A stretch of DNA of 64,000 bases from Bacteroidales bacterium (lineage in GTDB: Bacteria > Bacteroidota > Bacteroidia > Bacteroidales > GCA-2748055). The notes beneath the pieces were generated by a model, which did not search any database, was not told the DNA's origin, and saw only the letters and a list, made by a program, of their open reading frames with translations. Made by a program: the position numbers and the translations under genes. Location of the stretch: positions 1 through 64,000 of the forward strand of contig JAIPBT010000022.1 of the NCBI GenBank assembly GCA_021738565.1, in the 5' to 3' direction. Positions within the stretch are counted from its first letter, which is position 1. Every line of letters begins with the position of its first letter. Of this stretch, positions 15,535 to 41,338 are shown one piece after another.

Positions 15535-16617
15535 TCATAGCTTATACAATTTTTCCATCTCTATTATTCTATCTATGAGCTCTTTCCGGTACCATTCCGG
15601 ACCGAGTACTTCCACTTCCGCTCCCCACCCAAGCAAGGCTGCTGTGAATTCGAAGGTAGGTACAATGGTGAAGGAAAAAACATAACGGTCCTGCTCATAC
15701 CGCAGCAGCATCTGTGTTTCATGCAATGGCTGGGTGGCGATGTAGCTTGCCTGTCTCTTCGTAAAGGCTACAACGATCTCTTCCGGGTCTTTTTCGAACC
15801 GGGTAATCCCCACCGAGTCCCTGAACAGCCGTTCAAAATCGGTAATGCCGGTATGAAATGTTTTCATGAATGTGCGCTCCATGGATTGGATCCGGTCCAG
15901 GCCAAAGGTTTTAAATTTCCGGTCTTCCTCGTGCCACGCGACCAGGTACCAGCGGTTGCGGTATTCTTTTAAAAGATGGGGGTGGAGGGTGTATTTTTTC
16001 GGCTCCTCCGAGTCAAACGAGCGGTAATGGGTTTTCAGTACATGCTTTTCCTTGATATGTTCAATAAGGGGTTCCAGGTGTTCGGTACCCTTTACCAGCG
16101 GGGCGCTTTCAAATTCAATGAAGGACATGTCATAATCCTTGTTGGCGAGGTGGCTCTCATTGATGGCATTGATGATTTTCTGAACGGCCCCCTCGTATTT
16201 CTCCAGGAATGCTGTATGCTGAAACTGTTTCAGGATCGTGGCAGCAAACTTCAGGGTCTCCACCTCATCGTCGTTCAGCCCGATACTGTCAATAGTGTAG
16301 CCAGGATCCGAATACTTGTAGGCCTTCAGGTAATGGTCATATACGATCGGTGCCTGGAAATTGAGCTGGGTGTCATGACGCATATTCTCAAGGTCTTTTT
16401 CAATGGTGCGCTTGGAAATCTCAATGCCAATAGCTTCTTTGCAGGCATCCATCATTTCTTTTGCCGATGCGTTCCTGCCGTTTACAAGCAGGGAATTAAT
16501 GATGCGGTAGCGTAAATAAGGGTTCATGGGACATTTTTTCTTTAAAATACGAAAAATGTCATTATCAAGGGTATCCAAAGATGAAATTCCCCTGGAGCGG
16601 ATGGTTTTGTTTTGCAT
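15535..16617 (-). CDS. WYL-domain transcriptional regulator, copy 2
   Basis: 360 residues. The N-terminal ~90 form an HTH region preceded by a short extension (MQNKTIRSRGISSLDT); the HTH includes NASAKEMMDACKE and ISKRTIEKDLENMR. The WYL domain follows near residues 170-255, with HYRSFDSEEPKKYTLHPHLL and YRNRWYLVAWHE, then a WCX-like end. It is clearly paralogous to the protein at 9805-10812 (LLKEYRNRW in both). It is the third gene of the operon AAA ATPase - membrane protein - WYL - EAD11-like, which is read from operator C, so the regulator may control its own synthesis through that operator. Binding to the shared palindrome is inferred from location and number, not shown. Confidence 0.9.
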   Translation of the reverse strand: MQNKTIRSRGISSLDTLDNDIFRILKKKCPMNPYLRYRIINSLLVNGRNASAKEMMDACKEAIGIEISKRTIEKDLENMRHDTQLNFQAPIVYDHYLKAYKYSDPGYTIDSIGLNDDEVETLKFAATILKQFQHTAFLEKYEGAVQKIINAINESHLANKDYDMSFIEFESAPLVKGTEHLEPLIEHIKEKHVLKTHYRSFDSEEPKKYTLHPHLLKEYRNRWYLVAWHEEDRKFKTFGLDRIQSMERTFMKTFHTGITDFERLFRDSVGITRFEKDPEEIVVAFTKRQASYIATQPLHETQMLLRYEQDRYVFSFTIVPTFEFTAALLGWGAEVEVLGPEWYRKELIDRIIEMEKLYKL

Positions 16618-20972: not shown

Positions 20973-23063
20973 TTATTCTAAACTATGAATTCCGAAAAAA
21001 TTCAGAACCAGCTTCCTGTCCAGGAATTTATTGATGTTTTCACAGCAGGTTTCCGGCACCATGACGCAGGAATAACACGCAGCCATATTAGTTGTCATAA
21101 ATCCCTGCCCATTACTTGTGATACACAATGGATCAGAAGAACACCATTTGGCCTTGTCTATTGCCTTGCTTATGACAGGTGTAAGATTCTGAGGCAATCC
21201 TTTTTCAACCAGCCCTCCCAATGTTCCCTCTGTGTCGGAAGATGAGGTATATATAAGAATTCCATTCATAAACTGATTCCCGTTTCGTTTGTTGCAGTAT
21301 ATGATTTCGGTTAATGATGATAAACTGTAGCCGCTGTCAATGGATAATTGCTGCATGATCATATGGGAGAGGGTATGCAGGAAAACATACCTTGCATTGA
21401 TATTCTCCTGCCCGTTTTCGATTTGAAAGGTTTCAAAATAATTGTTAAGATTAACAGACATCTTATTGTACCTTTCTACAACAGCTTCTTCCTTCTCCCA
21501 TTTATTTAATGCTTCGTTGTTGAAGGATAGAAAGACACCTTCACCTTTAACTTCAGAACACGGCAATTCATTTGTTTTCAACGGGTATTTTCTGGCATCA
21601 CAGATTCTGGTATATTCATCAAGGCGACGACCTTTAAGATTGTCTGTGCTTGTTTCAAAGATTAAGTCTTCGTTTGCCAATGGTTTAATTCGTGTAAATC
21701 CTCTGAAAACCTTAAGCTCATTAATCTTGTCAAGTAGAGTTATCCTGTCTATTTTCACTGTGTCAGATAAAAAACCATCCTCCACTGCTATATGTCTTGC
21801 CTTGTACCAGATTTTTTTTGAACTGGTTATGGTTCTGTTATTGAAGCAACTGAACTCATCCAATCTTAACTTTTGTTTCTTGTCGGCAATCTGATTATCG
21901 CCCTCACTAAACAAATCAGCTATGACCTCTTCATACATGTCCTTTTCATAAATGAGCAGAGCAGGGGTCTGAGAATACAAATTTCTGAAATGCTCTTTCC
22001 ATTGTTCAGAAGTGTAGCTTCTGTATGTATCTGGTTGTATTGCGATAAAACTGTTTTTCAGTTCTGTCAGTTTATTCAGCAATTGAGGATCTACAAGATT
22101 CAGACCTTCTGGCAACCTTATACCCTTAAATATTAAAGGAAAATACAGATTATTTGCCCCGCGCTGTAAAGTTCGCGGATATTTTCTTTTTACCAAATCT
22201 GCATTTTCGCCGATTATTTCACCATCAGCATTGCGATGTATCTGTCCGGGAGGTATTGAACCAACCAACTGACGGACGAAACTGTCCCCATCCCTTCCCA
22301 ACCAGGGTTTTGACAGACGATCTTTAAGGTATGGCAGGTATTCATCATCTTGCGCAATAAATGTTGTTTCCTGATTAAAAATGTCTCCCAGGTTTTCTGA
22401 AGTAATAAACTTGCCGGTTTCTTTATCATAACTCTTCAGAGTAATACTGCTCAACGATGCTGAAGAACTTCCGAATTCAAGTTTTAGTTTGTTTCCTCTG
22501 CCTCTCTGATCCCTGAATTTCGGGTTTTTGTGAACATACCAATCCCAAGGAAAATCTGCGATAAAGCCTTCATCATTGGCTATAATAAATCTTGTTGGAA
22601 CGAGTTCAACAAATCTTGCTTTGTGGTTTGGAGAGGGATTCTGACAATCAATGCAATAATATGCTCTTAATGCATCGTCAAATTTTATGGGATATGAATT
22701 TCCCTTTTGCGGGACTGTACCATTGTTATACTTTTCAAGATCCGGCATGAAATGAATAGTTCCACAGCTTGGACAATACTTTGACATGGGAAAGCGAACT
22801 GTCTTTAATGCATTTGGGGCAGAAATTTCTAGTGGTGGCAGAACAAAGTTCTGTATTCCAAACGCCTCAGACAAGCGTTTGTCGACAAGAATTCTTCTTT
22901 TTGTTATGTGTGCTCCGGGATTCGAAGTTTCTGCTGTCAGTCCCCAGTCACTTTCCTCGTGATCATGCGAGAGAAACATCAATGATGCCCCCGGAAAATC
23001 ACCTATTGCGCCAGCAGCATAGGTATGAGTAATCTGAGATTGCCTAACTTTTATATCAGTCAT
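20973..23063 (-). CDS. drmB: DISARM protein DrmB (DUF1998)
   Basis: 696 residues. The N-terminus IKVRQSQITHTYAAGAIGDFPG is typical of DrmB. Two metal-site cysteine sets occur (CPSCG near residue 96 and CIDCQN near 138). The C-terminal DUF1998 region contains HTLSHMIMQQL, GYSLSSLTEIIY and YTSSSDTEGTLGGLV, then further cysteines (CYSC, CCEN). In DISARM, DrmA and DrmB form the core complex that acts on invading phage DNA. The start overlaps the end of drmA by 8 bases, so the two are translationally coupled. It is the last gene of the DISARM operon. Length and motifs agree with the family. Confidence 0.93.
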   Translation of the reverse strand: MTDIKVRQSQITHTYAAGAIGDFPGASLMFLSHDHEESDWGLTAETSNPGAHITKRRILVDKRLSEAFGIQNFVLPPLEISAPNALKTVRFPMSKYCPSCGTIHFMPDLEKYNNGTVPQKGNSYPIKFDDALRAYYCIDCQNPSPNHKARFVELVPTRFIIANDEGFIADFPWDWYVHKNPKFRDQRGRGNKLKLEFGSSSASLSSITLKSYDKETGKFITSENLGDIFNQETTFIAQDDEYLPYLKDRLSKPWLGRDGDSFVRQLVGSIPPGQIHRNADGEIIGENADLVKRKYPRTLQRGANNLYFPLIFKGIRLPEGLNLVDPQLLNKLTELKNSFIAIQPDTYRSYTSEQWKEHFRNLYSQTPALLIYEKDMYEEVIADLFSEGDNQIADKKQKLRLDEFSCFNNRTITSSKKIWYKARHIAVEDGFLSDTVKIDRITLLDKINELKVFRGFTRIKPLANEDLIFETSTDNLKGRRLDEYTRICDARKYPLKTNELPCSEVKGEGVFLSFNNEALNKWEKEEAVVERYNKMSVNLNNYFETFQIENGQENINARYVFLHTLSHMIMQQLSIDSGYSLSSLTEIIYCNKRNGNQFMNGILIYTSSSDTEGTLGGLVEKGLPQNLTPVISKAIDKAKWCSSDPLCITSNGQGFMTTNMAACYSCVMVPETCCENINKFLDRKLVLNFFGIHSLE

Positions 23064-26000
23064 TTTTCTTTATTTTTACCATACAACTTGGTTCGACGTC
23101 ACGCATTGTACTTACTTTTGGAAGCAGATGTGATGCAATATCCAGGGAACTATATTCTGCACTCACATCCAGCACTTCACCGTTTGCAATAGTTCCAAGC
23201 GGTTGTGCCATATAGTCTCTGAAATTGGCAAAGCGCCTGTTCTTAGGATTCAGGTTCTTCCATTTATTCTTTACGCTTTCAATAATATGATCGAGATATG
23301 TTTCGGTATTATCTCCTAATCTTTGTCGGATTTCAACTTTCAGATCATCTATGAATCCTGAAATGTCGTCATTATAGTCAAATTTCCCTTCTGCAGATTT
23401 CCTTTGAATGATCCATACCAGAGAAATAACAACTGAGGGAAGTATCTTTTCCAATGCAGGCTGAGATTGAGGGGTTACGCTTGCCGGTTCAACATATCTG
23501 TAAAATGCCTGATGGAATGACTTGTAATTCTCATAGTGCGACCTGTCGCGGTTTTTGGTGGCACTGTAGAAGCTGAAGATTATCCCTGGATCCTCTCTTC
23601 CCACGCGTGAGCTTGCCTGAATGTATTCAGAAGAGGATTTAGGATGTCCGTTTATCAGCATTAAATTCAACCGCGAAATATCAACTCCTGTTGCAATCAT
23701 ATTTGTGGAAGTGGCTACTTTAACAGGATGACTTAATTGTTCTTTATAGTATTTTTTCAGAATATTGAAGAAAACTTCATAGTTCACCTTGTATTCAGTG
23801 CTGTGTTGCAGATCTAAGTCACCAAAGAAAGCTTCATTCATAATAATTGCTTTATTCGTTGTCTCTAGCCAATCCTGAATACCCCTGATTCCCTTTTGTT
23901 GAATTATCTTAATTTTTTCATCAATGACAAGTTCACCAGCAAGTTTGTTTTTCTTGAGGCTTTCAAGAGCATTGGAGACATCATCTGCGCTCATTGCACT
24001 GGACAATTCTATGTCTCTCCCGTAGTAGTTCTGATGGATCTTCTGAAATACAATCTTGTCCAGGAATTTTCGGTAAGCAAAAATATCATCGTCAATGAAT
24101 GTCCGGAACTTGCCAAGTTCCTTCAGAGAGTTGAAATATACAAGCAGCGTATAATACTTGTCCAGGTCGGCGTTAATGGCATTTAGTATGTTCGGTGTTT
24201 CCATCAACACTGCAGCTAAACGGATGATAGCCGTTGAGGAGGTAAAACCCGATGACATGAATCCAATATATTTTCTTGGTTTATTGTCTTCGGTGTTTTT
24301 TCTCATAAAAAACGAATCGTCTGCTGAGATGCCCGGTGGTGGGAATTGCATAAAGTATTTCCTGTTGTAAAGGCGCTTGCATTGCTCTTTTGCGTTCTTC
24401 ACAGTTGCAGTGGCACCAACAATTTTTGGTCGATGTCCGGACAAAGAACACAATTTATCGATTGCATATTCGAATACACCATAAATTGTACCCAAAGAAG
24501 AGCCAATCAGGTGCAGCTCATCCTGAATGATTAATTCCGGACCTGGATTTAAAAGGGAATTATTATTTTCGATATCAAGATTAAACAGTCGGGCACTTTC
24601 TCTTTTCCACGCGATCTGAGCATATTTGTCAACCGTTCCAAACAATAAACTGGGGCGTTGCTTGTAGATTTCATCATCCACAGTATAATACGGAAAAGTC
24701 AGGTCTTCCCTGTATTGGTTGTCCCGGGTGTTTTTGACAGTAAAGAAATGGCACTTATTATTTGTACATGAAACCTCGTAGTTTCCTTGTGGTCTTAATT
24801 GGTCTCGTTCCCTGAATTTTCTGAAGTATCCCCATTCTCCTGCTAATGTGTCGCCAATTCTTTCCTTTATCAGCCGGTTCCCGCAACAGGGACAATTTAG
24901 CAGGAAAGGGGAGTATTTAATTTTTCTGGAGTTATTATGGGTGACGTTATCGATAAATGCCTCTATATTGGAATTATACCCGTCACCTTCATTGAAATCT
25001 TTGTAGCGGTTCGGAGTAAGGCTCTGACCGACCCATATTCCAGACGTAAATCTTGTCAGGCCGTATCTTTCAGATGAATTGCTCCTTATTATCTCACATG
25101 CTGAAATCAGCAGATTGGCACGTTGAAACTGATCAAGATTAAGCATCCTTAATGTATACCTCATCATTACGGAGACTCCGGCACCATCATCAGGCGTTTC
25201 CTCCCGAAGCCGCCGAAAGAATAATGTGAAGGCAATCAGACCAAGATATGCTTCCGTTTTACCACCACCAGTTGGAAACCAGATTAAATCCGCAGTGTCT
25301 CTGTCATGAGAATGCGGATCGGCAATGCTCTCAATTTGAGACAGAATAAAAGCGAGCTGAAAGGGGCGCCATTTTGCATAGAAGCCAAAATTCTCATCAT
25401 CGGCTGACCTTCCTTCTGAAGGTAATGACTGGAAATCCGGCAGAGGGCAGTCTTCATAGTTCTCAGAACCCGGAAGAACATTTTTGTGCTCTCTTCTCCA
25501 ACTGGAAAACTGTCCCATCACACGTTGCATGAACATCGCCTTGTTTGCATCAAAAAAAGCTTGTTTTATGCGACTGTCAGAGAATATCAATTCAATACCT
25601 TTTTCCAGACGATTAAATAAATCCAGACAGGTTTTTAAGTTGACATCCCCTTGTTGCTTCAATTCACCTGGTATTGTAAGAGTGGAAAGTGTTTCTTTTT
25701 GATTCTTTATCCAGTCTGCATATTTTTTGATGAAGCCATGTAACTCATTCTTTAGCTGATCTTCAGTAAATGAATTCCTGCTGAAGTCAGGACCTGACAA
25801 TCTTTTCATTTCAAGGATTGACCCCGTATCGTCAACATCAAAGCTGACTCCAAAGACTGTTTCTTCAGGCATCACTTCAGTCCAGATCTCATTCTTAAAT
25901 AGGGAAGAAGTTTTATTACATGACCAGTTTACAGAAATACCGTGTCCCATGGCATAAATATGGTAGTCCCTGAAGAGAAGGGCTGTATTCAGAGCTTCTT

Positions 26001-26742
26001 CATCATCTTTTAAAATACTGTAGTTTACCTTGTCCGGAAAATACTGGAAGGCTTTATGTTCTGAAGAAACAGATAACTCCGGTTGAAATATGCAGTGCTG
26101 GTCCTTACGCTGTTCACGAACTGAAACATGAAGGGAATTGATCATGCTTATTGTGATCAGGCTGCAGTCTTTGCTGTCTGAACCAGCTGCTCTGACGAAA
26201 ATGTTTATTCTTGCTTTAAAGTCTTCTTCATTTAATACAACGATTTCTTTTGTTGGCTTTTCGTCAATAATTAACTGTTTTTCCCTTACCAAACAAATTA
26301 ATTCGTCAGTAACATGATTTCTTTCCCATCTGAATTCATTGTCTTCACTCTTTTTCTTTTGGTATCTGCCAAAGGCATACCTAAGTGAGAATTTCATTTC
26401 GTTGGCAACAATAAATGAAAAACCCATGGAAGACGGTGAAAAGCTTGTAGCCAGTTTCAACTCATCATCCGACTGGTCATAGTCATCATCACCTTTTTCG
26501 GTTGGGGTTGCGGTGGTATTTTCACCATTTTTTTTCGTTTCTGAATCATCTTCTGTACTGGATCCTTCCGGATTATCTTCAGGTTCAATTACGTCAGTAG
26601 ATTCAAGTTGCTCACACGTTGTCTGAGGATACAGAATTCCCGTAGTGTAGAGGTTTAGTGGCCTGTAATGCAATTTTTCCTGAATGCCGTTCATTGGCCC
26701 CAGAATGATATCCTTGATGTTTTTTACAAGTTCGTCTCTCAT
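23056..26742 (-). CDS. drmA: DISARM helicase DrmA
   Basis: 1228 residues. Walker A is WFPTGGGKTEAYLG near residue 482. The DEAH-like box is IIQDELHLIGSSLG near 737. A helicase C-terminal half contains TNMIATGVDISRLNLMLI and YIQASSRVGRE near residues 1010-1050. A CPCCGNR zinc motif lies between the two halves. The N-terminal ~400 residues include an acidic low-complexity stretch (residues ~55-95). DrmA is the DNA translocase of DISARM and, with DrmB, the signature of the system. It lies 4 bases from the NERD-helicase gene upstream and overlaps drmB downstream. Confidence 0.94.
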   Translation of the reverse strand: MRDELVKNIKDIILGPMNGIQEKLHYRPLNLYTTGILYPQTTCEQLESTDVIEPEDNPEGSSTEDDSETKKNGENTTATPTEKGDDDYDQSDDELKLATSFSPSSMGFSFIVANEMKFSLRYAFGRYQKKKSEDNEFRWERNHVTDELICLVREKQLIIDEKPTKEIVVLNEEDFKARINIFVRAAGSDSKDCSLITISMINSLHVSVREQRKDQHCIFQPELSVSSEHKAFQYFPDKVNYSILKDDEEALNTALLFRDYHIYAMGHGISVNWSCNKTSSLFKNEIWTEVMPEETVFGVSFDVDDTGSILEMKRLSGPDFSRNSFTEDQLKNELHGFIKKYADWIKNQKETLSTLTIPGELKQQGDVNLKTCLDLFNRLEKGIELIFSDSRIKQAFFDANKAMFMQRVMGQFSSWRREHKNVLPGSENYEDCPLPDFQSLPSEGRSADDENFGFYAKWRPFQLAFILSQIESIADPHSHDRDTADLIWFPTGGGKTEAYLGLIAFTLFFRRLREETPDDGAGVSVMMRYTLRMLNLDQFQRANLLISACEIIRSNSSERYGLTRFTSGIWVGQSLTPNRYKDFNEGDGYNSNIEAFIDNVTHNNSRKIKYSPFLLNCPCCGNRLIKERIGDTLAGEWGYFRKFRERDQLRPQGNYEVSCTNNKCHFFTVKNTRDNQYREDLTFPYYTVDDEIYKQRPSLLFGTVDKYAQIAWKRESARLFNLDIENNNSLLNPGPELIIQDELHLIGSSLGTIYGVFEYAIDKLCSLSGHRPKIVGATATVKNAKEQCKRLYNRKYFMQFPPPGISADDSFFMRKNTEDNKPRKYIGFMSSGFTSSTAIIRLAAVLMETPNILNAINADLDKYYTLLVYFNSLKELGKFRTFIDDDIFAYRKFLDKIVFQKIHQNYYGRDIELSSAMSADDVSNALESLKKNKLAGELVIDEKIKIIQQKGIRGIQDWLETTNKAIIMNEAFFGDLDLQHSTEYKVNYEVFFNILKKYYKEQLSHPVKVATSTNMIATGVDISRLNLMLINGHPKSSSEYIQASSRVGREDPGIIFSFYSATKNRDRSHYENYKSFHQAFYRYVEPASVTPQSQPALEKILPSVVISLVWIIQRKSAEGKFDYNDDISGFIDDLKVEIRQRLGDNTETYLDHIIESVKNKWKNLNPKNRRFANFRDYMAQPLGTIANGEVLDVSAEYSSLDIASHLLPKVSTMRDVEPSCMVKIKKND

Positions 26743-26745
26743 GAC

Positions 26746-28554
26746 TTATCTGATTACATTAGATGCAAATTCTCCTGAAATAATGGTCTCATTTTCTTTG
26801 TTTACAAAATATATAAATTGGTGTTTCGCTCTGGTGAATGCATTATAAATTATCTTTTTCTGTCTCAAATCGGTCTTCACATATCTTTCCGGTGCTATAA
26901 AAAGAATGAACTGGTTCTCCAAACCTTTGAAGGAATGTGCTGTTGAAACCATTACCTTATCGGTCCGGAAAAGAGATTTTTCATCTATCTTACAGAATAA
27001 TTCAGGCTGAATTTGAATTATTTCATCAATCTTTTTCACATCGTAACATAATGCCGTGATCATTCCAGGGGATATGCCGTCCAGTCTCTTTTTCTCGATG
27101 AAGGAAAGAATCTGTTTTTTCAAGTCTTCAGATTCTGGATAGTATTTTATTTCTGAGTTAGCAACTTCCTCTTTGAAATAACAATCCTGTTTTGAAAGGC
27201 CGGTTATGTAATGTGCTGTATCAGAAAGCTTTTGAGGGTTCCGGCAATTATGTTTGAGTTTAACAACATAATTAGGGTATATACTTCTGAAGAAATTTTC
27301 AAATTCATCATCCTTGTCAAGATAGATATCCTGATTCTCATCATCCATGCAAATTAGAAAATTACCTGTCTCGAAATTCCCGTTTAGAAAGCAACCAAGC
27401 GCATCTATGTGATATTCATTAAAGTAATCCTGAGCTTCATCCATAATGATATAGTCAAATTTCTGGAAATGATAATCTTTGAATAGAGAATATACCTTCA
27501 GGGGAATTTCCTCGTTCCAAATTACAGAATCCGTAATTATTTCTTCATCATCACTATCCCTGCATTCCTGAATTACATCATCGAGTTTAAAACTAAAATG
27601 TTCTGACAGCATTTTATTGTAGAATTCATCTTTATGAATTACAAAAACATTATTTGCTTCAAGCAGCTTAATTTGCTGCCTTAAAAATAGGGCAAGGTTC
27701 TTGTTGAAACAGAGAAATAATACTTTGTCACCTTTTAGATCCTTCTTTTTCGCCTGTTCAAGAGCCAGCCACGTTTTTCCGGTTCCTGGTCCTCCCTTCA
27801 CCAATGCTCCCATATGATCATTATCCTCAAGCATTGTAAGTAATTGTTCCTGAGCTTCGTCTGTATATCTTTTGAACTGTGTATCGTTTCTTTTCAATAT
27901 ATCAGTCCAAGGTAATTCAAATACAATGTCCCTTCGAATGAAATTCTTGATTTTGAATAATTCTTTACCAGAAATCCCGGATGGTTTCTTTCTTTGGTAA
28001 GATTCGTGGTTTTTCCAGAAGTGTGTTATATCCTTAATGATCCTATGGAAGCTCTTTCCTTGAAAATCAATATAATCTACAATAAGGTCCGGATCGTATT
28101 CTACAGATCCTTTTCTATGTTTGCTGAGGGAAGGAGGCTTTTTACAATCCGGGAAGAAAACACAATACCCAAAAATTAATCTTCTGACTTCATTTTTTCC
28201 ATTAAATAATACAGGAAGCTTAGTGTCTCTGTAATCGAATAAATTTCCCGCAGCCTGGGCAAAGGGATCTTTTTCTTCCGTCCCATCCATCACCCACCAT
28301 TTATTGGTAAGTGAATCATATTTTACCTGCCTTCCCTTTACTTCGATAAAAAGGATAATGTCCTGATCAAGATAGATAAAATCTGTTTCGCCTATAAGTT
28401 TGAAATTCCCCGGTGTAGGATTTTTTACACTGTGGAAGAGGAAGCAGGGATTTTCACCATTAAACATACCTGATTCCAAGGCATGCTGATAAACGTTGTA
28501 TTCAGCATTTGAATTGAATTCATTCCTGGATATATGGTTTGGGAATATATTCAT
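26746..28554 (-). CDS. NERD-nuclease/UvrD-like helicase embedded in the DISARM operon
   Basis: About 602 residues from the ATG at 28554 (MNIFPNHISRN); a GTG at 28560 is also possible. The first ~180 residues are a NERD-type nuclease fold: GETDFIYLDQDIILFIEVKG gives the Asp and Glu-x-Lys pair. A superfamily 1 helicase follows: Walker A KGGPGTGKTW near residue 255, Walker B YIIMDEAQDYF near 375, the VSTAHSFKGLENQ motif near 550 and the AFTRAKHQF motif. It lies between drmE-like and drmA, with overlap or a few bases on each side, so it belongs to the operon. It is not DrmD (SNF2 type) nor DrmC (phospholipase D type); it may replace the missing nuclease. Confidence 0.85.
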   Translation of the reverse strand: MNIFPNHISRNEFNSNAEYNVYQHALESGMFNGENPCFLFHSVKNPTPGNFKLIGETDFIYLDQDIILFIEVKGRQVKYDSLTNKWWVMDGTEEKDPFAQAAGNLFDYRDTKLPVLFNGKNEVRRLIFGYCVFFPDCKKPPSLSKHRKGSVEYDPDLIVDYIDFQGKSFHRIIKDITHFWKNHESYQRKKPSGISGKELFKIKNFIRRDIVFELPWTDILKRNDTQFKRYTDEAQEQLLTMLEDNDHMGALVKGGPGTGKTWLALEQAKKKDLKGDKVLFLCFNKNLALFLRQQIKLLEANNVFVIHKDEFYNKMLSEHFSFKLDDVIQECRDSDDEEIITDSVIWNEEIPLKVYSLFKDYHFQKFDYIIMDEAQDYFNEYHIDALGCFLNGNFETGNFLICMDDENQDIYLDKDDEFENFFRSIYPNYVVKLKHNCRNPQKLSDTAHYITGLSKQDCYFKEEVANSEIKYYPESEDLKKQILSFIEKKRLDGISPGMITALCYDVKKIDEIIQIQPELFCKIDEKSLFRTDKVMVSTAHSFKGLENQFILFIAPERYVKTDLRQKKIIYNAFTRAKHQFIYFVNKENETIISGEFASNVIR

Positions 28555-28556
28555 GA

Positions 28557-31100
28557 TCACTTTATTATATATGATATTGTTTTTATATCCAGAAACTTAT
28601 ACATTTTCTCCAATAGTTCCGGGAATGAATAATCCGAAGTATAGATCAGGTCATTCATATTGGCTATATTCATTTTTTGCAGTTCACCTGGCAATCTGGT
28701 TTTCAGTTTTTTTACAGCCCTTATACTTATCAGAGTTTCATCTTTTTCAGATTCGACAAGTATTCCGAGATTGCATAAGACATCAATAAGGGTCTCCATA
28801 TTTCTTGGTTCGTAAACATCGCCGTAAACCCATGTATGGATTGCCTGATCGCTTCCAATATTAAAGCCATTTTCCTTTAATAGCGCCCTGAATGAAGACT
28901 TGGTTATTTTGTTTTCCCTGAGATACGAGTCAATGTTTTTCCTCCATTTCATGTCTTGGTCCAGCAATTTTTTAATCTCAGGTTGTTCTTCTGCGATTTG
29001 CCAGATAAGTTTCTCAAATTCCTCTGCATCATGCATAACAAGAAAAATAATATCATCCACTTTAAGATCCCTGGCCTGTACATGACATTCTTTAAGGATT
29101 TTAGGGTCTTCCTTATGAATGAAAAAATATTTTGATTCATTTACAGTAACTGAGGTGCCATCTCTGAAAAACAAAATAATACTATCAATTTCCCTGGTTC
29201 TGTCATAGTTCTTGTAAACCTGATTGATTTCTTTTTCTTTCATCACATCTCTGATAAATGAATCCAGATCAAATTCCATTTGATCAGTTTCATCCGTCTC
29301 TGGTTTTGCTGAAATCACCTCTGGGTTACTGCCCTCTTCATAATCAAGATTAAGAATGTCATACAATTTTTCCCTGCTGCTCAGATTCCTGATCAGCCAG
29401 CAATTCTTGTTCTTATCGTATTGATCATGTTCAGTTTTATTTAGAATCAAAACTACATTGCTTTTGAATGAATTCGCGCAAATGGCATTCGACAATTCTC
29501 TTGTTGAATTTAAAACAAACACATTGGCATACTTTTCTAATTCTGTTAATGGATTCTGGATATTCCGGGGATTCATGAATTCAATCCCCTCCAGATGCAT
29601 CATGGCTTTCAGGAAGTCCATATCGTCCTGGTTTTCATTGAAAGAAACAATACCGGTTTTTTCTTCAAGTCTGATGTCCGTGTTTGTGATTAAATACAAT
29701 TTCTCGTTGCCCCGACTTGCTCTGATTTTATCCAGAAAAGCGAACAGAAAATTAAAAATATTTTCATATTCCTTGCCTGTGAACCAAGTGTTTCTAATTT
29801 CATTTAATGATGCCTGAACAGAATATAAATATTCTTCCAATGAATCAGGATTGTAAAAAGAATTAAACCTCTTTTTCAATTCGAACAGTGGTTTTACCAG
29901 TGGATCAATCAAATTAATAATATGGACCTCTTTGCATAAACCTCTGGCTATTCTTATGGCTTCTTTGAAATCTGAGCTTAAATCAGGTATGTTAACCAGT
30001 TTGGCTTCAGGCTCATGCATACCTGCTTTTGAACTGAGAAAATGTTTCTTTGCTTCACTATTAAGGAAAAAGGGAAAGTTATCAAGTTTCGATTTAAGTA
30101 TATAATTGTATGAGTGTAAATCTTTTTCATTGAAGACCAAATAGATATCCTTTATTTTTCCTTCAGTTAATGGCTTTAAATAATTATCCTTTATTGCGTT
30201 TAAGACATTCTCCAATTCCTTCTGGTCTCTCGTAAAATCGAAAATTAGAGTATTTAACCAAGGGCGTTCTTGTTTGATTACGAAATATTCATTGAAATTG
30301 TCAAATCTGGAGAAAACGAGAAACTCCTTGATTTGATTTATTTGTCTGCCCGCAGTGCTCCTGTTGCTCCCTAACCTTTTGAAAGAAATGAGTCCGTTTT
30401 CAACACTCATCCTGCTTGCCGGGATTGAATTCAGAAAAGGGATTTCGTTAATCGTTAAATCCTTGAATTCTTCTGATTTCAGAAGTCCTGGATTATGTGT
30501 AAAGAATAGAGCTCCATTGAACTTATTATTCAAATCAAATTCGTGTGAATTCATTTTCTGAACCAGTTCAAGCGGGTTTTTCCCGATTCTTACAGAGCTA
30601 TTATACTTTTTGATGCGGTTGAATACAGAATCAAGGTTTTTTCCGTAGGCAACCCGATTATTGTATAGTTCAAGCAAGGGGGCTTCATCAAAATCATAAT
30701 ATTTCAGTTTGCCTGACCCGGATTTTAGTATTATCTCAGAAGAGGTAAAATTTACAGCCTTTAATTGACAAACATTATTATCATCATCAAGAATTCTTAC
30801 TGGCTGATCCGGAAATTTCAAATTGCTAAAATTCAGACCATTCAGAAAAGTGTCTGCATTGGTCTTAAACAACGCCAGTGAATAGAAAAGTGGCAACCAT
30901 ACCACATCTTCTTTTTTTCTAAGAAACACTGGAATTATTCTGTACTTATTATCTGTTGTGTTCGTGTAGAACAAATAAGGAAGAAGCTTAGCTGAAATGA
31001 AATCTGAATCATCCATTAATTGAGAATTGATCCTGATTCTTCTAAGAAAAGGCATTTCATATGCCGTTCTTTCATCAATAATAGATTTAATGTTCATCAT
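28557..31100 (-). CDS. drmE: DrmE-like protein of class 2 DISARM
   Basis: 847 residues without any ATPase or nuclease motif that I can see. The position between the cytosine methylase and drmA, and the length of about 800 residues, are those of DrmE, a protein of unknown function that defines class 2 DISARM. Features read directly: N-terminal YRIIPVFLRKKEDVVWLPLFYSL, a central DUF-like region with DIYLVFNEKDLHSYNY, and a C-terminal segment with QARDLKVDDIIFLV. A helical end follows with TKSSFRALLKENGFNIGS and IHTWVYGDVYEPRN. It overlaps the methylase gene by 14 bases and the NERD-helicase gene by a few. The name rests on context as much as on sequence. Confidence 0.68.
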   Translation of the reverse strand: MMNIKSIIDERTAYEMPFLRRIRINSQLMDDSDFISAKLLPYLFYTNTTDNKYRIIPVFLRKKEDVVWLPLFYSLALFKTNADTFLNGLNFSNLKFPDQPVRILDDDNNVCQLKAVNFTSSEIILKSGSGKLKYYDFDEAPLLELYNNRVAYGKNLDSVFNRIKKYNSSVRIGKNPLELVQKMNSHEFDLNNKFNGALFFTHNPGLLKSEEFKDLTINEIPFLNSIPASRMSVENGLISFKRLGSNRSTAGRQINQIKEFLVFSRFDNFNEYFVIKQERPWLNTLIFDFTRDQKELENVLNAIKDNYLKPLTEGKIKDIYLVFNEKDLHSYNYILKSKLDNFPFFLNSEAKKHFLSSKAGMHEPEAKLVNIPDLSSDFKEAIRIARGLCKEVHIINLIDPLVKPLFELKKRFNSFYNPDSLEEYLYSVQASLNEIRNTWFTGKEYENIFNFLFAFLDKIRASRGNEKLYLITNTDIRLEEKTGIVSFNENQDDMDFLKAMMHLEGIEFMNPRNIQNPLTELEKYANVFVLNSTRELSNAICANSFKSNVVLILNKTEHDQYDKNKNCWLIRNLSSREKLYDILNLDYEEGSNPEVISAKPETDETDQMEFDLDSFIRDVMKEKEINQVYKNYDRTREIDSIILFFRDGTSVTVNESKYFFIHKEDPKILKECHVQARDLKVDDIIFLVMHDAEEFEKLIWQIAEEQPEIKKLLDQDMKWRKNIDSYLRENKITKSSFRALLKENGFNIGSDQAIHTWVYGDVYEPRNMETLIDVLCNLGILVESEKDETLISIRAVKKLKTRLPGELQKMNIANMNDLIYTSDYSFPELLEKMYKFLDIKTISYIIK

Positions 31101-32652
31101 TAATTATCGTATTAACTATTTCAGCCAGTTGTTTTGCCAGAAAAGGTGGAACAGCATTGCCAACCTGATGATATTGTTTTGTTTTGGTTCCCCAGAAATA
31201 ATAGTTATCCGGAAAAGTCTGTATTCTTGCAGCCTCGCGAACCGTTAAAGATCTGCATTGATCAGGATCATAGTGTATAAAGTAGTGTCCATCTTTTGAA
31301 ATATGACTCGTAATTGTAGTAGCGGGTTTATTTGCAGCCTGAACCCTGAATCGATCGTTAAAACTACCTGTCTCAGCATTCCTGTGTTCGGGCATGAGTT
31401 CTGCAGGGTAGTCCTTCAATCTGGGAAATACACCCCCATTTTTTTTCGCAATATTCGATGCGAAAAGATAACGTTTCAGGTCTGATTCCAGATGATTTCT
31501 AGCTTCATGGTTACAAATCCCTTTTATATTGGGATCATTATACCACTTCCTTAATAATGGATTTTTAATTTTGCCTGTTTTTCTAATGAAATTTATTCCG
31601 GTATCACATTCAGGAGTATCATCCAAAGGATTGATATCTAATTCAATACGGAATCTATTGATAATATCTTTCCATGCTTTAGGAGAATCCTCTATTTTTT
31701 GGTATCTGTGCCTTATTCGATCATCCATTACAAAGGATTCGATGATTCTTTTAGACAATCCGCTTCTAAGCGGTGGCAAACTTTCAATAACATCCTTTAC
31801 AGTGATTTGATTATTAGTTTGTTTAAGTATCTCAGGTGCTTTTCTTAGCATGTCAGCTCTGATTCCTAACAAAATAACCCGATGTCTGGATTGGGGCACT
31901 CCATATCTTTCTGCCCTGATCAGAAAGTCACTGTTATCTGAATATTCAGGGTCTTCTTTGATTAGATTGTTTGCTGGTGGCTTTACAAATGAAAATATTT
32001 TGTATGTACTTTTATTTGAATAGTCGGGATACACCTTCCAAGGTTCTTTTAAATCATTCAGAATCATCTCAAAAATACTATTACCCTTTAGTTTTGCAGA
32101 AAGCAATCCCCTCACATTCTCCATTACAAATACAACTGGTTGGTGCTTTGCAATGATTCTGAGATATTCTTGGTAAAGAAATACCCTGTTATCGTTTTCG
32201 CGGATGCCCCCAACCCTTGACCGCCCAGCCATTGAATATGCCTGACATGGTGGCCCTCCGATAAGCACCCATTCTTTTTTTCCATTCAGAGCCGCCTCGA
32301 TCCTATGGTCTACAATTTCAGGTGGGAAGTTTTTACTCCCAAGTTCGCATCGCCAAACCTCTTTGAGCGCCTCCTCAGCCTCATTCCAGTATTTTTCGTA
32401 TAGTCTGTCTTTTTTTTCCAGTCTTTTAGCCTTTTCATTTTCCTTAATTACATCATAGTATTCCTTTGGGACTCCTCCCGGATCAAATTTTCGAAAAAAG
32501 CTCCGGAATTGAAGGGTTTGATGAGCATTTTCATCCATTTCTATAGACAACTTTATATCAAAGCATCTTTTTCCATTTTCATCAAGAAGAGAAGAAAAAC
32601 CTTCTCCCAGACCTCCAGGTCCTGCGAACAAATCTATTATTGGTATTCCCAT
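31087..32652 (-). CDS. drmMII: DISARM DNA cytosine-5 methyltransferase DrmMII
   Basis: 521 residues with the full cytosine methylase motif set. Motif I is IDLFAGPGGLGEGF at residues 6-19. Motif IV is IGGPPCQAYSMAGRSR, with the catalytic Cys near residue 137. Motif VI is FVMENVRGLLSA. Motif VIII is SRHRVILLGIR and motif X is YHQVGNAVPPFLAKQLAEI at the end. It transfers a methyl group from S-adenosylmethionine to cytosine in host DNA, marking self in class 2 DISARM. The long variable region (about residues 290-440) carries target recognition. A vsr gene starts just upstream, 1 base away, as is common for cytosine methylases. Confidence 0.94.
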   Translation of the reverse strand: MGIPIIDLFAGPGGLGEGFSSLLDENGKRCFDIKLSIEMDENAHQTLQFRSFFRKFDPGGVPKEYYDVIKENEKAKRLEKKDRLYEKYWNEAEEALKEVWRCELGSKNFPPEIVDHRIEAALNGKKEWVLIGGPPCQAYSMAGRSRVGGIRENDNRVFLYQEYLRIIAKHQPVVFVMENVRGLLSAKLKGNSIFEMILNDLKEPWKVYPDYSNKSTYKIFSFVKPPANNLIKEDPEYSDNSDFLIRAERYGVPQSRHRVILLGIRADMLRKAPEILKQTNNQITVKDVIESLPPLRSGLSKRIIESFVMDDRIRHRYQKIEDSPKAWKDIINRFRIELDINPLDDTPECDTGINFIRKTGKIKNPLLRKWYNDPNIKGICNHEARNHLESDLKRYLFASNIAKKNGGVFPRLKDYPAELMPEHRNAETGSFNDRFRVQAANKPATTITSHISKDGHYFIHYDPDQCRSLTVREAARIQTFPDNYYFWGTKTKQYHQVGNAVPPFLAKQLAEIVNTIINDEH

Positions 32653-32653
32653 T

Positions 32654-33070
32654 TTATTCCAGAATCTTTTTTAGGAGCATATTCAGTGTTTTGTCAAGGT
32701 TGGAGCCCTTCAGATCACATTCCCAAAGGGTAATTGTTCTGTACCCTGCTTTTATCAACTTTGTAATATTTTTGGCGTCCCGCTCCCTGTTTGCCATTAT
32801 CTTCGATTTCCACCATTTTGTTCTTGTAGCCGGAAGTTTGAAATAACTACAATTTTCATGTCCGTGCCAGAAACAACCGTTTACAAAAATAACAGCATTG
32901 TATTTTTTAAGTGTAATATCAGGTTTGCCTGGCAAATTTTCTTGGTGAAGCCTGTATCTGAAACCATGGGCAAAAAGGAACTTTCTCACAATCATTTCAG
33001 GCTTGGTGTCCTTGCTCCTTATTTTACTCATGTTATAGCTGCGAACAGCAGGATCATGCACATCAGTCAT
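32654..33070 (-). CDS. vsr: Very-short-patch repair (Vsr) mismatch endonuclease
   Basis: 138 residues, MTDVHDPAVRSYNMSKIRSKDTKPEM at the start (the usual Vsr opening). The catalytic Asp lies in LPGKPDITLKKYNAVIFVNG, and the FWHGHENC block contains zinc and active-site residues. The enzyme nicks next to T:G mismatches that arise when 5-methylcytosine deaminates, protecting the host from the mutational cost of the adjacent methylase. It is the first gene of the DISARM operon. A Vsr gene is not a core DISARM component, so this is an accessory pairing with drmMII. A weak promoter region lies upstream, but no clear TAnnTTTG was confirmed. Confidence 0.93.
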   Translation of the reverse strand: MTDVHDPAVRSYNMSKIRSKDTKPEMIVRKFLFAHGFRYRLHQENLPGKPDITLKKYNAVIFVNGCFWHGHENCSYFKLPATRTKWWKSKIMANRERDAKNITKLIKAGYRTITLWECDLKGSNLDKTLNMLLKKILE

Positions 33071-33265: not shown

Positions 33266-33940
33266 TCATAAAATTTTTGAATGCTTTCTTAGCTTTCCAG
33301 GATAGGTTACTAGAGGGCTTTCAATCAATACTTCATCCTTATGCAAATGCATCAGCATCCATGCTTCTGCCGGCAGTTCAAATAATCTCTCTATTTCCAC
33401 AGATTCGAAGAGGATGTCAGATTTTTTAGTGTCGTAATGCATCTTGGCGGTAAGAGGAAACAATGAACCTTCAAGCATTTCTTCTACGCCATAAAGAGGA
33501 TCGGACTGCTGATTGATCTTGGGGAAGGAGCGGCCGGCGATGCCGAAGCGAGTGTCGTGCTTTTCCATGATGATGGCGTCCCAGTTGCCGTCGGCGCCTA
33601 AGAGGGTGACATGATTGAAGGACTGGGTTCCGAGGAAGAAGGGGAGGAGGTAGTAATCGTGGTTGCCGCTGTTCAGTACGATGTTGACACCCTTCTTGCA
33701 TAGGGTTTCGAAGCTGGATCCCAGTTTTTCGTTCACCTTTTCGAAATCTGTATCCAGGTCGATCAGATCACCGGCGATGAGCACGACATCAGCTTTCAGA
33801 TCAATGCATGCCCGCACGGTCAGGCACCAGGCATCTGTGAGGGATCTGAGGAGACGTTCTGCCTTTCTTCCACACATCGGTCCGCCAAAGTGGATGTCTG
33901 CAGTTGCGAGTATTCTCACTTCAGCTTGTTCTTCACTCAT
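33266..33940 (-). CDS. Calcineurin-like metallophosphoesterase (SbcD/Mre11-like)
   Basis: 224 residues. Metal-binding motifs in order: TADIHFGG (D-x-H), IAGDLIDLD (GD), LNSGNHDY (GNHD) and a C-terminal LMHLHKDE followed by TYPGKL. The usual GHxH motif is thus replaced by MHLH, which keeps the His-x-His spacing. Length is short compared with SbcD (about 400), and no SbcC partner is adjacent. It overlaps the M28 peptidase gene by four bases (ATGA) and lies downstream of recB on the same strand. It may act as a small nuclease or phosphatase linked to DNA ends; the link to RecBCD is inferred from position. Confidence 0.82.
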   Translation of the reverse strand: MSEEQAEVRILATADIHFGGPMCGRKAERLLRSLTDAWCLTVRACIDLKADVVLIAGDLIDLDTDFEKVNEKLGSSFETLCKKGVNIVLNSGNHDYYLLPFFLGTQSFNHVTLLGADGNWDAIIMEKHDTRFGIAGRSFPKINQQSDPLYGVEEMLEGSLFPLTAKMHYDTKKSDILFESVEIERLFELPAEAWMLMHLHKDEVLIESPLVTYPGKLRKHSKIL

Positions 33941-34818
33941 TGGATTTCTAAGGTTTCTAGAAATACTGTTACAGCCAGGTACGTGCTGTTCACCACTTCC
34001 TTCATCCGTTCAAAGTCCAAAGTGTAAATGGTGTCGGTCTCGCTGTGATAGTTCGGGTTCCTGATCTTCGCAGTATCCGTGATCATCACGGCGTTGTACC
34101 CGAATCTCCAGTAGTTCTTGTGGTCCGACAATCCGGCCAGTTCATCGTTCACCGGCAATTCGATCATCCAGGTATCGATGGCTTCGTTCTCAATCATCAG
34201 GTCCCTGATCTTCCCATTGAATGCTGGGGCGGAATCCAATCCCAGGATCATGGCAAAATCTCCCGTGTCGGGGATGTCAGGGACCAGCCATGGACGGGGA
34301 TTGGGCTGTGAGCCGGGAATCTCCGAAAAGTACCCGATCATTTCGTAACAGATCATGCCGAGAATATCTGCATTCTGTCCGACCAGTGAAGATGCATGAA
34401 CGAAGCTCCCCATGTTCTCCGTATTGAAAAATGGCGGTTCCTCAAGACAGTAGGCCACGAACTCCAGCCCGTAACCGAGGTCCGGACGGTTCGCACTCAC
34501 GAGCCTGGCCGTTTCCAGCAGGCCCGCGATCCCGCTGGCATTGTCGTCCGCACCGGGATAATCGCAGCATACGTCGTAATGGGCCCCGACGACCAGCCGC
34601 TTTTCAGCCTGGCCATTGTATGTGGCGATTACATTCTTATAGGTTGCGCTATCGACTCCCCACTTCTGTTCCCGCACCTGCAATCCCGTTTTTTGAAACT
34701 CATCTCTGATGTATTGGGCGATGATGTTGAGCGACTGAAGGTGCCTGCTGTTCCGGGGTGGATGGATACCGGTCAGTACGTCAACGTCACGGTACATCCT
34801 GTTCTTGTCTGCTTTCAT
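33937..34818 (-). CDS. M28-family zinc aminopeptidase-like protein
   Basis: 293 residues, no signal peptide. Zinc-site motifs: VVGAHYDVCCDYPGADDNASG (His and bridging Asp), YCLEEPPFF (Glu-Glu, general base and ligand) and LSDHKNYWRFG near the end (His ligand). It would remove N-terminal residues from peptides in the cytoplasm. The gene sits 88 bases after the end of recB, read in the same direction, and overlaps the metallophosphoesterase. Peptidases are not known parts of RecBCD pathways, so its presence may be accidental or belong to an unexplored gene group. Confidence 0.87.
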   Translation of the reverse strand: MKADKNRMYRDVDVLTGIHPPRNSRHLQSLNIIAQYIRDEFQKTGLQVREQKWGVDSATYKNVIATYNGQAEKRLVVGAHYDVCCDYPGADDNASGIAGLLETARLVSANRPDLGYGLEFVAYCLEEPPFFNTENMGSFVHASSLVGQNADILGMICYEMIGYFSEIPGSQPNPRPWLVPDIPDTGDFAMILGLDSAPAFNGKIRDLMIENEAIDTWMIELPVNDELAGLSDHKNYWRFGYNAVMITDTAKIRNPNYHSETDTIYTLDFERMKEVVNSTYLAVTVFLETLEIQ

Positions 34819-34906: not shown

Positions 34907-37900
34907 TCATTGTGTTGATGTGGTTTGTGATTCATTCGCCGACAGGGCCTGGTCAAGTTTCGCGATAACCTTTTCGTCGGGGAACGCTGTGAAGATCCCG
35001 GTTTCCCGGTTTTCCCTCACGCCCCTTAGGAAGACATAGATCACGCCGCCGAAATGTTTTTCGTAATCGAAGTCCGGGATCCGGATCTTTAGCCAGCGTG
35101 TCAGGGCGACGGTGTAGATCATGTACTGGAGGTGGTAGTTGCTGCCTTTCATGGCTTCCTCCAGTTTCGACTTGCTGTAGTCCTCCACCGCGTTGCCGAG
35201 GTAGTTGGACTTCCAGTCGAGGATATAGTATTTCCCGTCCTGCTCGAAGACCAGGTCGATGAAGCCGGTCATCAGCCCGCTGAGGTCGCTCTCGCCTCCT
35301 ACGGTCGCCTCTTCACCGAGGTAGTCGTTCAGCACCGACCGGTTGATCCTGTCCACAGAGAAATAGAACTCCATTTCGGGGATCTTTTTTTCGTTCCTGA
35401 TCTCCTGCAACCGGAAAGGTTCGGTACCGAGCGGGATCCTGGTTTTCATCACGTGGCTCACCATTTTTTTGAAATGGCCCAGCTTATTCTCCTTAATGAG
35501 GTTGGAATAGTATCCCGACGCATCCTTCAGGCTTTGTTCCCAGCTGTTTTCATCATTGAAGTCGAGGAATTCGAAGATGCTGTGCAGCGCGTTGCCTGCA
35601 TTGGCACCGCGGGGAAGTTCCTGGAAGATGAAGTGATCGTAGGCACTTTCTCCGCTGAGATTCGCGGCTTCGAACGGGGAGATGTGGTGTGCCCTGCTCA
35701 GTGCGCTGAAGCTGTGGATGCCGAACGCGTTATGTATCTTTCGTACTTCTGTTTTCCTGGGTTCAAAGGCGGGCTCCTCTTCGGAGGGATCGTATGTTCC
35801 CGCGTCCGGACGAAATGCTGCCTGTGGTTGTTCCTCATACCCGATCAGATCAGGATCGGATCCCTTGCTGTGGTGCCTCAACACCCTGAGAAGGGATGAA
35901 TCAATGGCCTCTTTCTGTGTGCCGTATTCCCTTGGCACGAGGGAGATGTAACATTTGTAAACCGCCCTGGTGAGCGCCACGTAAATCAGCCTGCGGTTCT
36001 CCTGCTCCTTCTGGTCGTCGAACAATGCCCTGTCTTCGTCATCCAGCCCGGGGTAGTCGAGTGTGACCAGGTATTTGCCTTTTTTCCTGAAATCATTGAC
36101 CTTTCCCTTTTCCAGGGTCCTGAATTTGGGGATCATGGAAAGATAGGGGGCAAAGACGATCTTGTATGTAAGCCCTTTGCTTTTATGGATCGTGGATATC
36201 TGCACGGCATTCTCATCACTTTCGATACGTTGCTCGTACTCGTCCTCGTCACTCTCTTTTGCGCGCTGCATCCAGGTAAGCAGTTCTTCGGGTGTATAGC
36301 GGAAGGTCTTTTCCGCCGTGTGCAGCAATTCGGCAAGATGAATGAGGTTGGTCAGCACCCGCTGGCCCAGTACATCCTTCATACAGAGTTGCCTGATCCC
36401 GTATATGTCCAGGAATTCCGAGATCATGTTGTAGATGCCCTCATCGACCAACCTTTTTTTCAGGCCGAGGAATATCTCCACGTTTTTCTCCTCGTCCAGT
36501 GCATTGATCCTGTCCAGGTCGTACCCGAAATGCTGACTGTACATGGCCCGCCTGATGCCGCCGCTGGTGGGATCCAGTACCGCCTTCAGCAGGTACTGCA
36601 GCTGGATGGCTTCGTCCGATTTCATCACCCTCAGGTCGTCCCGCTTAACGGAAGGGATATTGTACCTGGCCAGCGCTGCCTTGATCCGGTCGCCCTCTTT
36701 GCCTTCACGAACCAGGATCCCGATGTCCGACGGCCGGATCCGTTCTTCGTTGATCCGTGCATCGCCGGTCAGCAACCTGTACACCTCCCTGGCCACCCAG
36801 GCATCGTTGGTCCGGTTGTCGTTGGTGCCGAATTCCATCACAGTCACCGGGACCACTTCCCTTCCGTTTTCAGTCATGCTGCCCAGTCCCGGGTTCCCGG
36901 CCTCCACCTTTTCATACCGGATCTTATCGTCCTTGAATACGTTGTATCCATCGGCAGGTTTGAACAGGATATTCAGTGCCTCGACCAGTTTTGCTGTTGA
37001 CCGGTAGTTGTATTGCATGGAGTAGACCTCTTCACCCACGTCTTCCCGTGCATCGTTGTAGGTTTCCAGGTCGGCCTTTCTCCATCCGTAAATGGACTGC
37101 TTCGGGTCGCCGATGAAGAACAGGGTCCTGTTTTCTCCAAACACCCCTTTGAATATCCCGTACTGCATCCGGTCCGTATCCTGGAACTCATCGATGAACG
37201 CCGCGTCGTATTTTTCTTTGAGCCCGGCGATGAAGGTATCGTTGCGTAGCGCCTCGTGCACAGTCCTGATCTGGTCGTCGAAGGCTATGAATCCTTTGCG
37301 GCCCTTGGTTTCGCCAATGTTCTCCGAAGCCGTCTCGGCCATCCGGATATAATGGAATTTCAGCAGCCTGTCGGACGCCGCAACGATGGCCTCTTCCGCC
37401 TCTTCGAATGCACCCTTCATGAAATCGAAATGGGCAAAGTACTTGTTGGGTTCATCCTTTTTTTCTTTGACGACATTCGTCCTGAACAACCGGATGAACT
37501 TTTCTTCATCATCTTCCTGGATGGCATTCTTCAGGGCATTGCTGCCGGTGACTCCCAGGATGCTGTTGCGGTTCGACCTGACAACCTCCTTCAGGGACGC
37601 TTCCGCATCGAGGTAAGCCTTCCCGGTCTCCTCCTCCGTTTGTTCAGCAAGTCCTTCCGATCCTGTGAGCTCCATGCCCTGCATCAGCTTCCTCAGCAGT
37701 CCGGGTAGCGCTTCAAGATCGATCGATTCCCAGATCTTTTTGAAAAGTTCCCCGTTCTCTATGGTATTCAGGTGTTCCCTGAAGTAGGAGTACACCTGCT
37801 GTTTGAACAGCGGCGAATCGTCCTTCAGCAATTCGAAATCGAAAGATTGCCGGGTCTCGAACGTGAATTCTGAGATGGTCCGCTGACAGAAAGCGTGGAT

Positions 37901-38272
37901 GGTAAAAACCGAGAGTTGGTCGAGCATTTGCACGGCCTCCGCCAGTTTTAATGCAGCCGTTTCATTCCCGGCGGCATCGATCACTGCCTCGATCTCCCTG
38001 TCGGTGCGTGTATCGTCGCGGGCATACTTTAGTCCGCTGCGGACGAACTTTCGGATCCTCAGTTCCAGTTCAGCCACCGCTGCATTGGTGAAGGTCACCA
38101 TGAGGATGCGGTCGATGCTGACGCCCTTTTCCAGGATCAGCTTCAGCACCATGATGGCGATGGAATAGGTCTTGCCGGTGCCTGCACTGGCCTCCACCAG
38201 GTAGCGTTTCCTTTCAGGCTGAAAGGTGCCGGCTTCAAATGTCTTGGGTGTACTCATGGTTTCAATTTTCAT
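34907..38272 (-). CDS. recB: Exodeoxyribonuclease V beta subunit RecB
   Basis: 1121 residues. Walker A is LVEASAGTGKTYSIAI at residues ~25-40. Walker B AAFIDEFQDTD lies near 360, FIGDPKQSIYGWRKADL near 393, ISTIHKSKGLTYKIVF near 695 and a motif VI LIYVALTRAVYKC near 770. The C-terminal nuclease reads GLMTGFIDLVFEQDGKYY and then LDWKSNYLG (Asp and Asp-x-Lys metal site). RecB unwinds 3'-5' and carries the nuclease of the RecBCD complex, which resects double-strand breaks and degrades foreign linear DNA. Its start overlaps recC by four bases. Most Bacteroidota rely on AddAB-type enzymes, so a full RecBCD set is notable. Confidence 0.94.
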   Translation of the reverse strand: MKIETMSTPKTFEAGTFQPERKRYLVEASAGTGKTYSIAIMVLKLILEKGVSIDRILMVTFTNAAVAELELRIRKFVRSGLKYARDDTRTDREIEAVIDAAGNETAALKLAEAVQMLDQLSVFTIHAFCQRTISEFTFETRQSFDFELLKDDSPLFKQQVYSYFREHLNTIENGELFKKIWESIDLEALPGLLRKLMQGMELTGSEGLAEQTEEETGKAYLDAEASLKEVVRSNRNSILGVTGSNALKNAIQEDDEEKFIRLFRTNVVKEKKDEPNKYFAHFDFMKGAFEEAEEAIVAASDRLLKFHYIRMAETASENIGETKGRKGFIAFDDQIRTVHEALRNDTFIAGLKEKYDAAFIDEFQDTDRMQYGIFKGVFGENRTLFFIGDPKQSIYGWRKADLETYNDAREDVGEEVYSMQYNYRSTAKLVEALNILFKPADGYNVFKDDKIRYEKVEAGNPGLGSMTENGREVVPVTVMEFGTNDNRTNDAWVAREVYRLLTGDARINEERIRPSDIGILVREGKEGDRIKAALARYNIPSVKRDDLRVMKSDEAIQLQYLLKAVLDPTSGGIRRAMYSQHFGYDLDRINALDEEKNVEIFLGLKKRLVDEGIYNMISEFLDIYGIRQLCMKDVLGQRVLTNLIHLAELLHTAEKTFRYTPEELLTWMQRAKESDEDEYEQRIESDENAVQISTIHKSKGLTYKIVFAPYLSMIPKFRTLEKGKVNDFRKKGKYLVTLDYPGLDDEDRALFDDQKEQENRRLIYVALTRAVYKCYISLVPREYGTQKEAIDSSLLRVLRHHSKGSDPDLIGYEEQPQAAFRPDAGTYDPSEEEPAFEPRKTEVRKIHNAFGIHSFSALSRAHHISPFEAANLSGESAYDHFIFQELPRGANAGNALHSIFEFLDFNDENSWEQSLKDASGYYSNLIKENKLGHFKKMVSHVMKTRIPLGTEPFRLQEIRNEKKIPEMEFYFSVDRINRSVLNDYLGEEATVGGESDLSGLMTGFIDLVFEQDGKYYILDWKSNYLGNAVEDYSKSKLEEAMKGSNYHLQYMIYTVALTRWLKIRIPDFDYEKHFGGVIYVFLRGVRENRETGIFTAFPDEKVIAKLDQALSANESQTTSTQ

Positions 38273-41334: not shown

Positions 41335-41338
41335 TTTT

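Follow-up and report, generated by a model that had tools for sequence, protein, structure and literature searches.

In this study, we concluded that a six-gene operon of a Bacteroidales bacterium probably encodes an anti-phage system of the DISARM family, one that would belong to a branch without drmC and in which a NERD nuclease fused to an SF1 helicase would serve as the degradative partner of DrmA and DrmB (DrmAB). The operon lies in the window, that is, the whole 64,000-nt stretch of DNA that was analysed, and its gene content, gene order and coupling, the conserved catalytic residues of the NERD protein and the co-inheritance of this protein with DrmA were established here. In DISARM, DrmAB acts as a motor, and DrmC, the phospholipase-D-type nuclease suspected of destroying phage DNA, is both dispensable and often absent; a second helicase that is co-inherited with DrmA and has an intact nuclease domain is a concrete candidate for carrying out this degradation.

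According to ORF calling, positions 20973-33070 are filled by six minus-strand genes, transcribed in the order vsr, drmMII, drmE-like gene, NERD-helicase gene, drmA and drmB (Table 1). A sequence-only reading of this DNA had proposed these six genes in this order, differing from class 2 loci with drmC, and profile searches confirmed all six. In transcription order the junctions are +1, -14 (drmMII/drmE), -4, +3 and -8 nt (drmA/drmB), with overlaps given as negative values, and those of four related loci are likewise tight, save for one 98-nt gap in L102. The claim that the NERD-helicase gene is locked into the operon was borne out by its 4-nt overlap with drmE and its 3-nt gap to drmA, and also by its sequence distances, which track those of DrmA.

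Table 1. Genes of the defence operon, in order of transcription, with the profile matches that support them.
Gene	Product	Length (aa)	Position	Strand	Profile support
vsr	Very short patch repair endonuclease	138	32654..33070	-	TIGR00632 7.6e-43; PF03852 2.3e-34
drmMII	DNA cytosine-5 methyltransferase	521	31087..32652	-	PADLOC DrmMII 6.1e-96; PF00145 4.6e-48; PPCQ and ENV motifs
drmE-family gene		847	28557..31100	-	PF24957 DrmE_C 1.6e-13
NERD-helicase gene	NERD nuclease (residues ~1-120) fused to SF1 UvrD/GajB/Schlafen-like helicase	604	26746..28560	-	PADLOC RTasNERD-Hel 2.2e-27
drmA	YprA-family SF2 helicase	1228	23056..26742	-	NF038325 2.4e-250; PADLOC DrmA 5.8e-189
drmB	DUF1998/MZB zinc-binding partner of DrmA	696	20973..23063	-	NF038324 2e-102; PF09369 MZB

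DrmB passed the cut-off of NF038324 (344 bits against 240), while DrmA, which is matched by the PADLOC DrmA models, scored 833.9 bits with NF038325, under the equivalog cut-off of 950. Judged from these profile scores it appears to be a divergent DrmA, and the sub-cut-off score touches the name of the subtype. The drmE-like protein is conserved in its C-terminal domain (51 bits with PF24957 DrmE_C against a cut-off of 27) and divergent at its N-terminus, with no match to the full-length NCBIfam model (DrmE_fam, NF038316) or to the PADLOC models, and the genes in the same position in related loci match PF24957 or NF038316. Such relatives were detectable only by profile and Pfam DrmE_C, and a single-sequence search with the window's DrmE found none in the phylum's 394 other genomes and none in plasmids. 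Its AlphaFold model was poor (pLDDT 51.7), and a sequence search of solved structures gave no credible match.

The GC content across the operon is 35-41%, compared with ~53% in the nearby recBCD operon, as would fit an island that was acquired, although values near 40% are found in much of the window. The recB, recC and recD genes form a complete-looking operon upstream of the defence operon (34907-42934, minus strand), a metallophosphatase-domain gene and one more gene (33266-34818) lie between the two, and SusC/SusD and Por-sorting genes are located downstream, which would fit a host from the Bacteroidota. At 10993-14821 (plus strand), between WYL regulators at 9805-10812 and 15535-16617, lie genes for an N6 DNA methylase that has specificity-like and HATPase domains and for a 295-aa partner, and this pair may be a further defence or modification system. 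An AAA_11/AAA_12 SF1 helicase with a C-terminal DUF2726 (45675-48407, plus strand) resembles Mokosh MkoA/MkoC, and a 267-aa protein with a Schlafen group 3 helicase domain that starts at profile position 100 (48458-49261, minus strand) is probably the product of a truncated gene.

The NERD domain of the window's NERD-helicase was sub-threshold with Pfam NERD (PF08378, 0.0036), and the protein aligned over its full length with relatives, of which L123, L053 and L125 match Pfam NERD at ~1e-12. Residues D60, E73, K75 and Q102 were invariant in 44/44 aligned NERD-helicases, two or three rows of this alignment duplicating others, and the helicase motor motifs were invariant as well. The four residues form a PD-(D/E)XK signature, and the nuclease active site is intact in sequence. 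AlphaFold modelled the fusion with a mean pLDDT of 84.9, and the best structural neighbours of the model in Foldseek were SLFN11/14, UvrD and the Dna2 nuclease-helicase, while the SF1 motor was nearest by sequence profile to HelD, SLFN11 and GajB. A search of phages for the NERD protein gave no match.

The sequence-only reading had suggested looking for the same six-gene order in other genomes, and it was indeed repeated in L118 (G143:C8), from the same phylum. The five-gene core drmMII-drmE-NERD-drmA-drmB was found in L038 (Aestuariivivens) and L076 (Pseudozobellia), both of the Bacteroidota, and in L102 (a Bacillota MAG); in L038, vsr is located ~1.5 kb downstream of drmB. The junctions of drmE with the NERD gene and of the NERD gene with drmA overlap or abut in every order-conserving locus. 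The window's NERD protein shared 25-34% identity with its counterparts from the three Bacteroidota-type loci and 23% with that of L102, while DrmA identities to the window were 29-39%; because these values are low, the order-conserving loci are old rather than recent copies. Among 395 genomes of the phylum, the NERD-helicase was found in 11 besides the window's own, with drmA adjoining it in 9/11, although drmA is present in only 19/394 other genomes (hypergeometric p ~8e-12). The adjacency of the two genes in the phylum exceeds chance. In a plasmid collection, drmA was close to the NERD-helicase gene in 8/13 records. The position of the NERD gene varies in the wider family, where it follows drmB (L039, L041, L050, L053) or precedes drmE (L087).

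We classified 112 DrmA loci, consisting of the 80 nearest to the query alignment in one contig scan together with plasmid and in-phylum loci, and found a NERD-helicase in 42, drmC in 39, both in none and neither in 18, with 13 not scorable. This set is biased, as the scan favours window-like DrmA and some plasmid loci were chosen for a NERD match; the class 2 drmC loci of Bacillales are outside it. In the least biased subset, the phylum sample of 20 DrmA genomes, 12 had a NERD-helicase (those of L132 and L135 being of a divergent kind), two had drmC, two had neither and four were not scorable. The NERD loci come from at least eight phyla (Bacillota, Actinomycetota, Pseudomonadota, Bacteroidota, Chloroflexota, Myxococcota, Thermodesulfobacteriota and Melainabacteria) and also occur on Deinococcota plasmids. 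Within the loci, the NERD protein follows DrmA in its sequence distances, with a Mantel r of 0.59 (41 loci, p 0.0002), or 0.64 when restricted to the 32 loci with a methyltransferase, compared with 0.82 for DrmA and its obligate partner DrmB and 0.08 (p 0.19) for DrmA and the methyltransferase. With NERD at ~0.6 and the methyltransferase at 0.08, the former has been inherited largely within the block and the latter exchanged.

The sequence-only reading had also pointed to the lack of drmC and proposed that the NERD-helicase supplies the role of DrmC. No DrmC was found among the window's ORFs of at least 80 aa, so the absence itself holds; as a distinctive feature it does not, since drmC is generally lacking on the window's side of the DrmA tree. 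The tree (FastTree) has two halves, one of which contains 36/37 drmC loci, while the window's half has a single one, L054, on a long branch; NERD is spread through the window's half and the outer branches of the other. The window's half of the DrmA family is therefore generally without drmC, with NERD coming and going within it. That the NERD-helicase took the place of DrmC in evolution one for one would agree with 0/112 loci having both genes, and replacement as such is plausible. However, the exclusion stems largely from a single deep bifurcation of the DrmA phylogeny and is confounded by it, so that a shared role is inseparable from shared ancestry: among ~10 independent NERD contrasts, drmC differs in only 1-2, which cannot reach significance, and an exclusion independent of ancestry was unsupported when tested on this tree. 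Moreover, many loci have neither gene, the NERD gene often lies upstream of drmA rather than in the position of DrmC after drmB, and PLD genes elsewhere in a genome could serve too. In the present genome there are six PLDc_2 matches elsewhere, with PLD-domain proteins on contigs C35, C39 and C69, and such a host protein could act in trans. We consider the one-for-one replacement improbable.

It would be somewhat less surprising, though still unlikely in our view, if the NERD-helicase were an optional accessory, with DrmAB alone blocking phage DNA and the NERD protein only widening the range or processing by-products. Relatives with neither NERD nor drmC are common, DrmC was dispensable in the DISARM tested (PMC9142583), and the NERD gene may stand upstream of drmA or downstream of drmB. 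The sequence-only reading had named a nearby drmC, or a NERD gene dispensable and variable among relatives, as findings that would speak against it; the former was not seen, but variability was, since the searched flanks of seven drmE-bearing loci (L034, L035, L040, L042, L043, L051 and L096) contained neither gene. This counts against our preferred explanation as well, in that NERD is not strictly needed; so do the sub-cut-off score of DrmA and the lack of a match between DrmE and the full-length NCBIfam model. Against an optional accessory, covariation with DrmA is far stronger for NERD than for the methyltransferase, the catalytic residues have been kept in every NERD-helicase aligned, and the NERD gene is tightly joined to both drmE and drmA wherever the order is conserved. 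Three of the seven loci carry other nucleases upstream of drmE, namely a Vsr-DUF559-methyltransferase fusion in L040 (5771-7321), a FokI-type cleavage domain with HNH in L042 (4878-7254) and an NgoFVII-like restriction enzyme in L051 (3847-6339), which suggests that the nuclease slot is filled in several ways across drmE loci. Finally, the free exchange of methyltransferases and the pairing of vsr with a C5-methyltransferase gene (within 200 nt in 17/25 loci having both) could indicate that vsr-drmMII and NERD/DrmAB are separate modules, two systems side by side rather than one functional unit. This we regard as very unlikely, because drmMII overlaps drmE not only here but also in L118, L038 and L076 (20, 11 and 4 nt), and a methyltransferase is a normal component of DISARM (PMC9142583).

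We return to the NERD-SF1 protein as the degradative partner of DrmAB, an explanation that draws on DrmAB biochemistry (PMC9142583) and on the nucleases of YprA-family systems (PMC12458937). It has been reported that DrmAB is activated by unmodified 5'-overhang DNA, that its ATPase is raised by unmethylated DNA and lowered by 5mC, and that DrmC is dispensable, often missing and does not co-purify, a recruited nuclease being proposed (PMC9142583). Nucleases differ strongly among YprA-family systems, and defence by ARMADA type II requires an SF1 helicase that has an RNase domain fused at its N-terminus and is encoded beside the YprA helicase (PMC12458937). In the model we propose, DrmA and DrmB would load on DNA that is unmodified and has single-stranded ends, for example phage DNA on entry or during replication, and would then translocate; the NERD-SF1 helicase-nuclease would unwind and cut the DNA exposed by DrmAB, a step that DrmC has been proposed to perform in other DISARMs. 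Host DNA would be marked as self by DrmMII, T:G mismatches arising from deaminated 5-methylcytosine would be repaired by Vsr, and DrmE would be an accessory. Phage defence, the order of these events, the physical partnership of NERD with DrmAB and its nuclease activity are all what we infer from homology. Vsr has been described as correcting the mismatches left by deaminated 5-methylcytosine (PMC6116569), and it is probably a repair companion of DrmMII outside the defence core. As an effector it was set aside, since vsr goes with the methyltransferase.

Compared with known systems, the operon has the separate adjacent drmA and drmB genes and the associated methyltransferase of DISARM in the broad sense, and with class 2 (PADLOC type II) it shares these two adjacent genes, DrmMII and, in its putative DrmE, the DrmE_C domain. 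Class 2 differs in having drmC, which the PADLOC type II definition requires (PMC9252829), whereas the window's operon is without it, has a NERD-SF1 helicase between drmE and drmA and vsr at its head, and has DrmE and DrmA proteins that diverge from the NCBIfam models. ARMADA type II (ArmA-D) likewise combines a YprA-family helicase and a methyltransferase with an SF1 helicase that is GajB-like and fused at its N-terminus to a nuclease-type domain; in ARMADA, however, DUF1998 is fused to YprA, the type II SF1 fusion is to RelE, and BrxHII and PglX homologues are present, while in the window DUF1998/MZB is separate (DrmB), DrmA is of the DISARM type, the SF1 fusion is to NERD and neither homologue occurs in the operon. 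TALON also brings a YprA-family helicase together with a NERD nuclease, but there the YprA protein resembles that of ARMADA and is fused to an inactivated RNase H domain, unlike the window's DrmA, and the NERD protein has been described as an endonuclease rather than a NERD-SF1 fusion; the TPR-CSD and TBP domains of TALON were found neither in the operon proteins nor in three scanned neighbouring genes. The closest PADLOC matches to the NERD-helicase, RTasNERD-Hel and C3a187 NERD+UvrD, have the same NERD plus SF1 architecture, yet these models are assigned to reverse-transcriptase systems or to other defence contexts, whereas the window's NERD protein sits with DrmAB. Gabija GajB and Schlafen SLFN11 are related to its SF1 motor in sequence, SLFN11 and Dna2 in predicted fold, and Dna2 is also a nuclease fused to an SF1 motor; their partners and nuclease domains differ from those in the window, and the likeness is one of motor sequence or fold only.

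A full-text search of the literature, mostly of open papers, returned no description of NERD-helicases in DISARM, and prior notice elsewhere is possible. The NERD-bearing loci without drmC do not look like an isolated case but like a DISARM branch that has yet to be described, and definitions that require drmC, such as PADLOC type II, would miss such loci. As a bolder and tentative proposal, they might constitute a third DISARM class present in at least eight phyla, in which NERD-SF1 would be the effector that DrmAB needs to degrade DNA and to which drmC would never have belonged.

Several DrmA loci showed additional arrangements. In L133 (11969-20000, minus strand), a gene for a Piwi-domain protein (690 aa, PF02171) stands in line with drmA, drmB and a gene for an 816-aa protein, a possible association of Argonaute with DISARM. 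A second SF1 helicase of 366-442 aa without NERD follows drmB in L022, L044, L073, L078, L083, L095 and L125; these seven loci also have a NERD-helicase and often a 515-650 aa protein, and represent a further subtype. Two SF1 helicases per operon, a UvrD/GajB-like one (600-930 aa) before drmA and a NERD-helicase after drmB, were found in L053, L058, L075, L050, L032, L024, L023 and L025.
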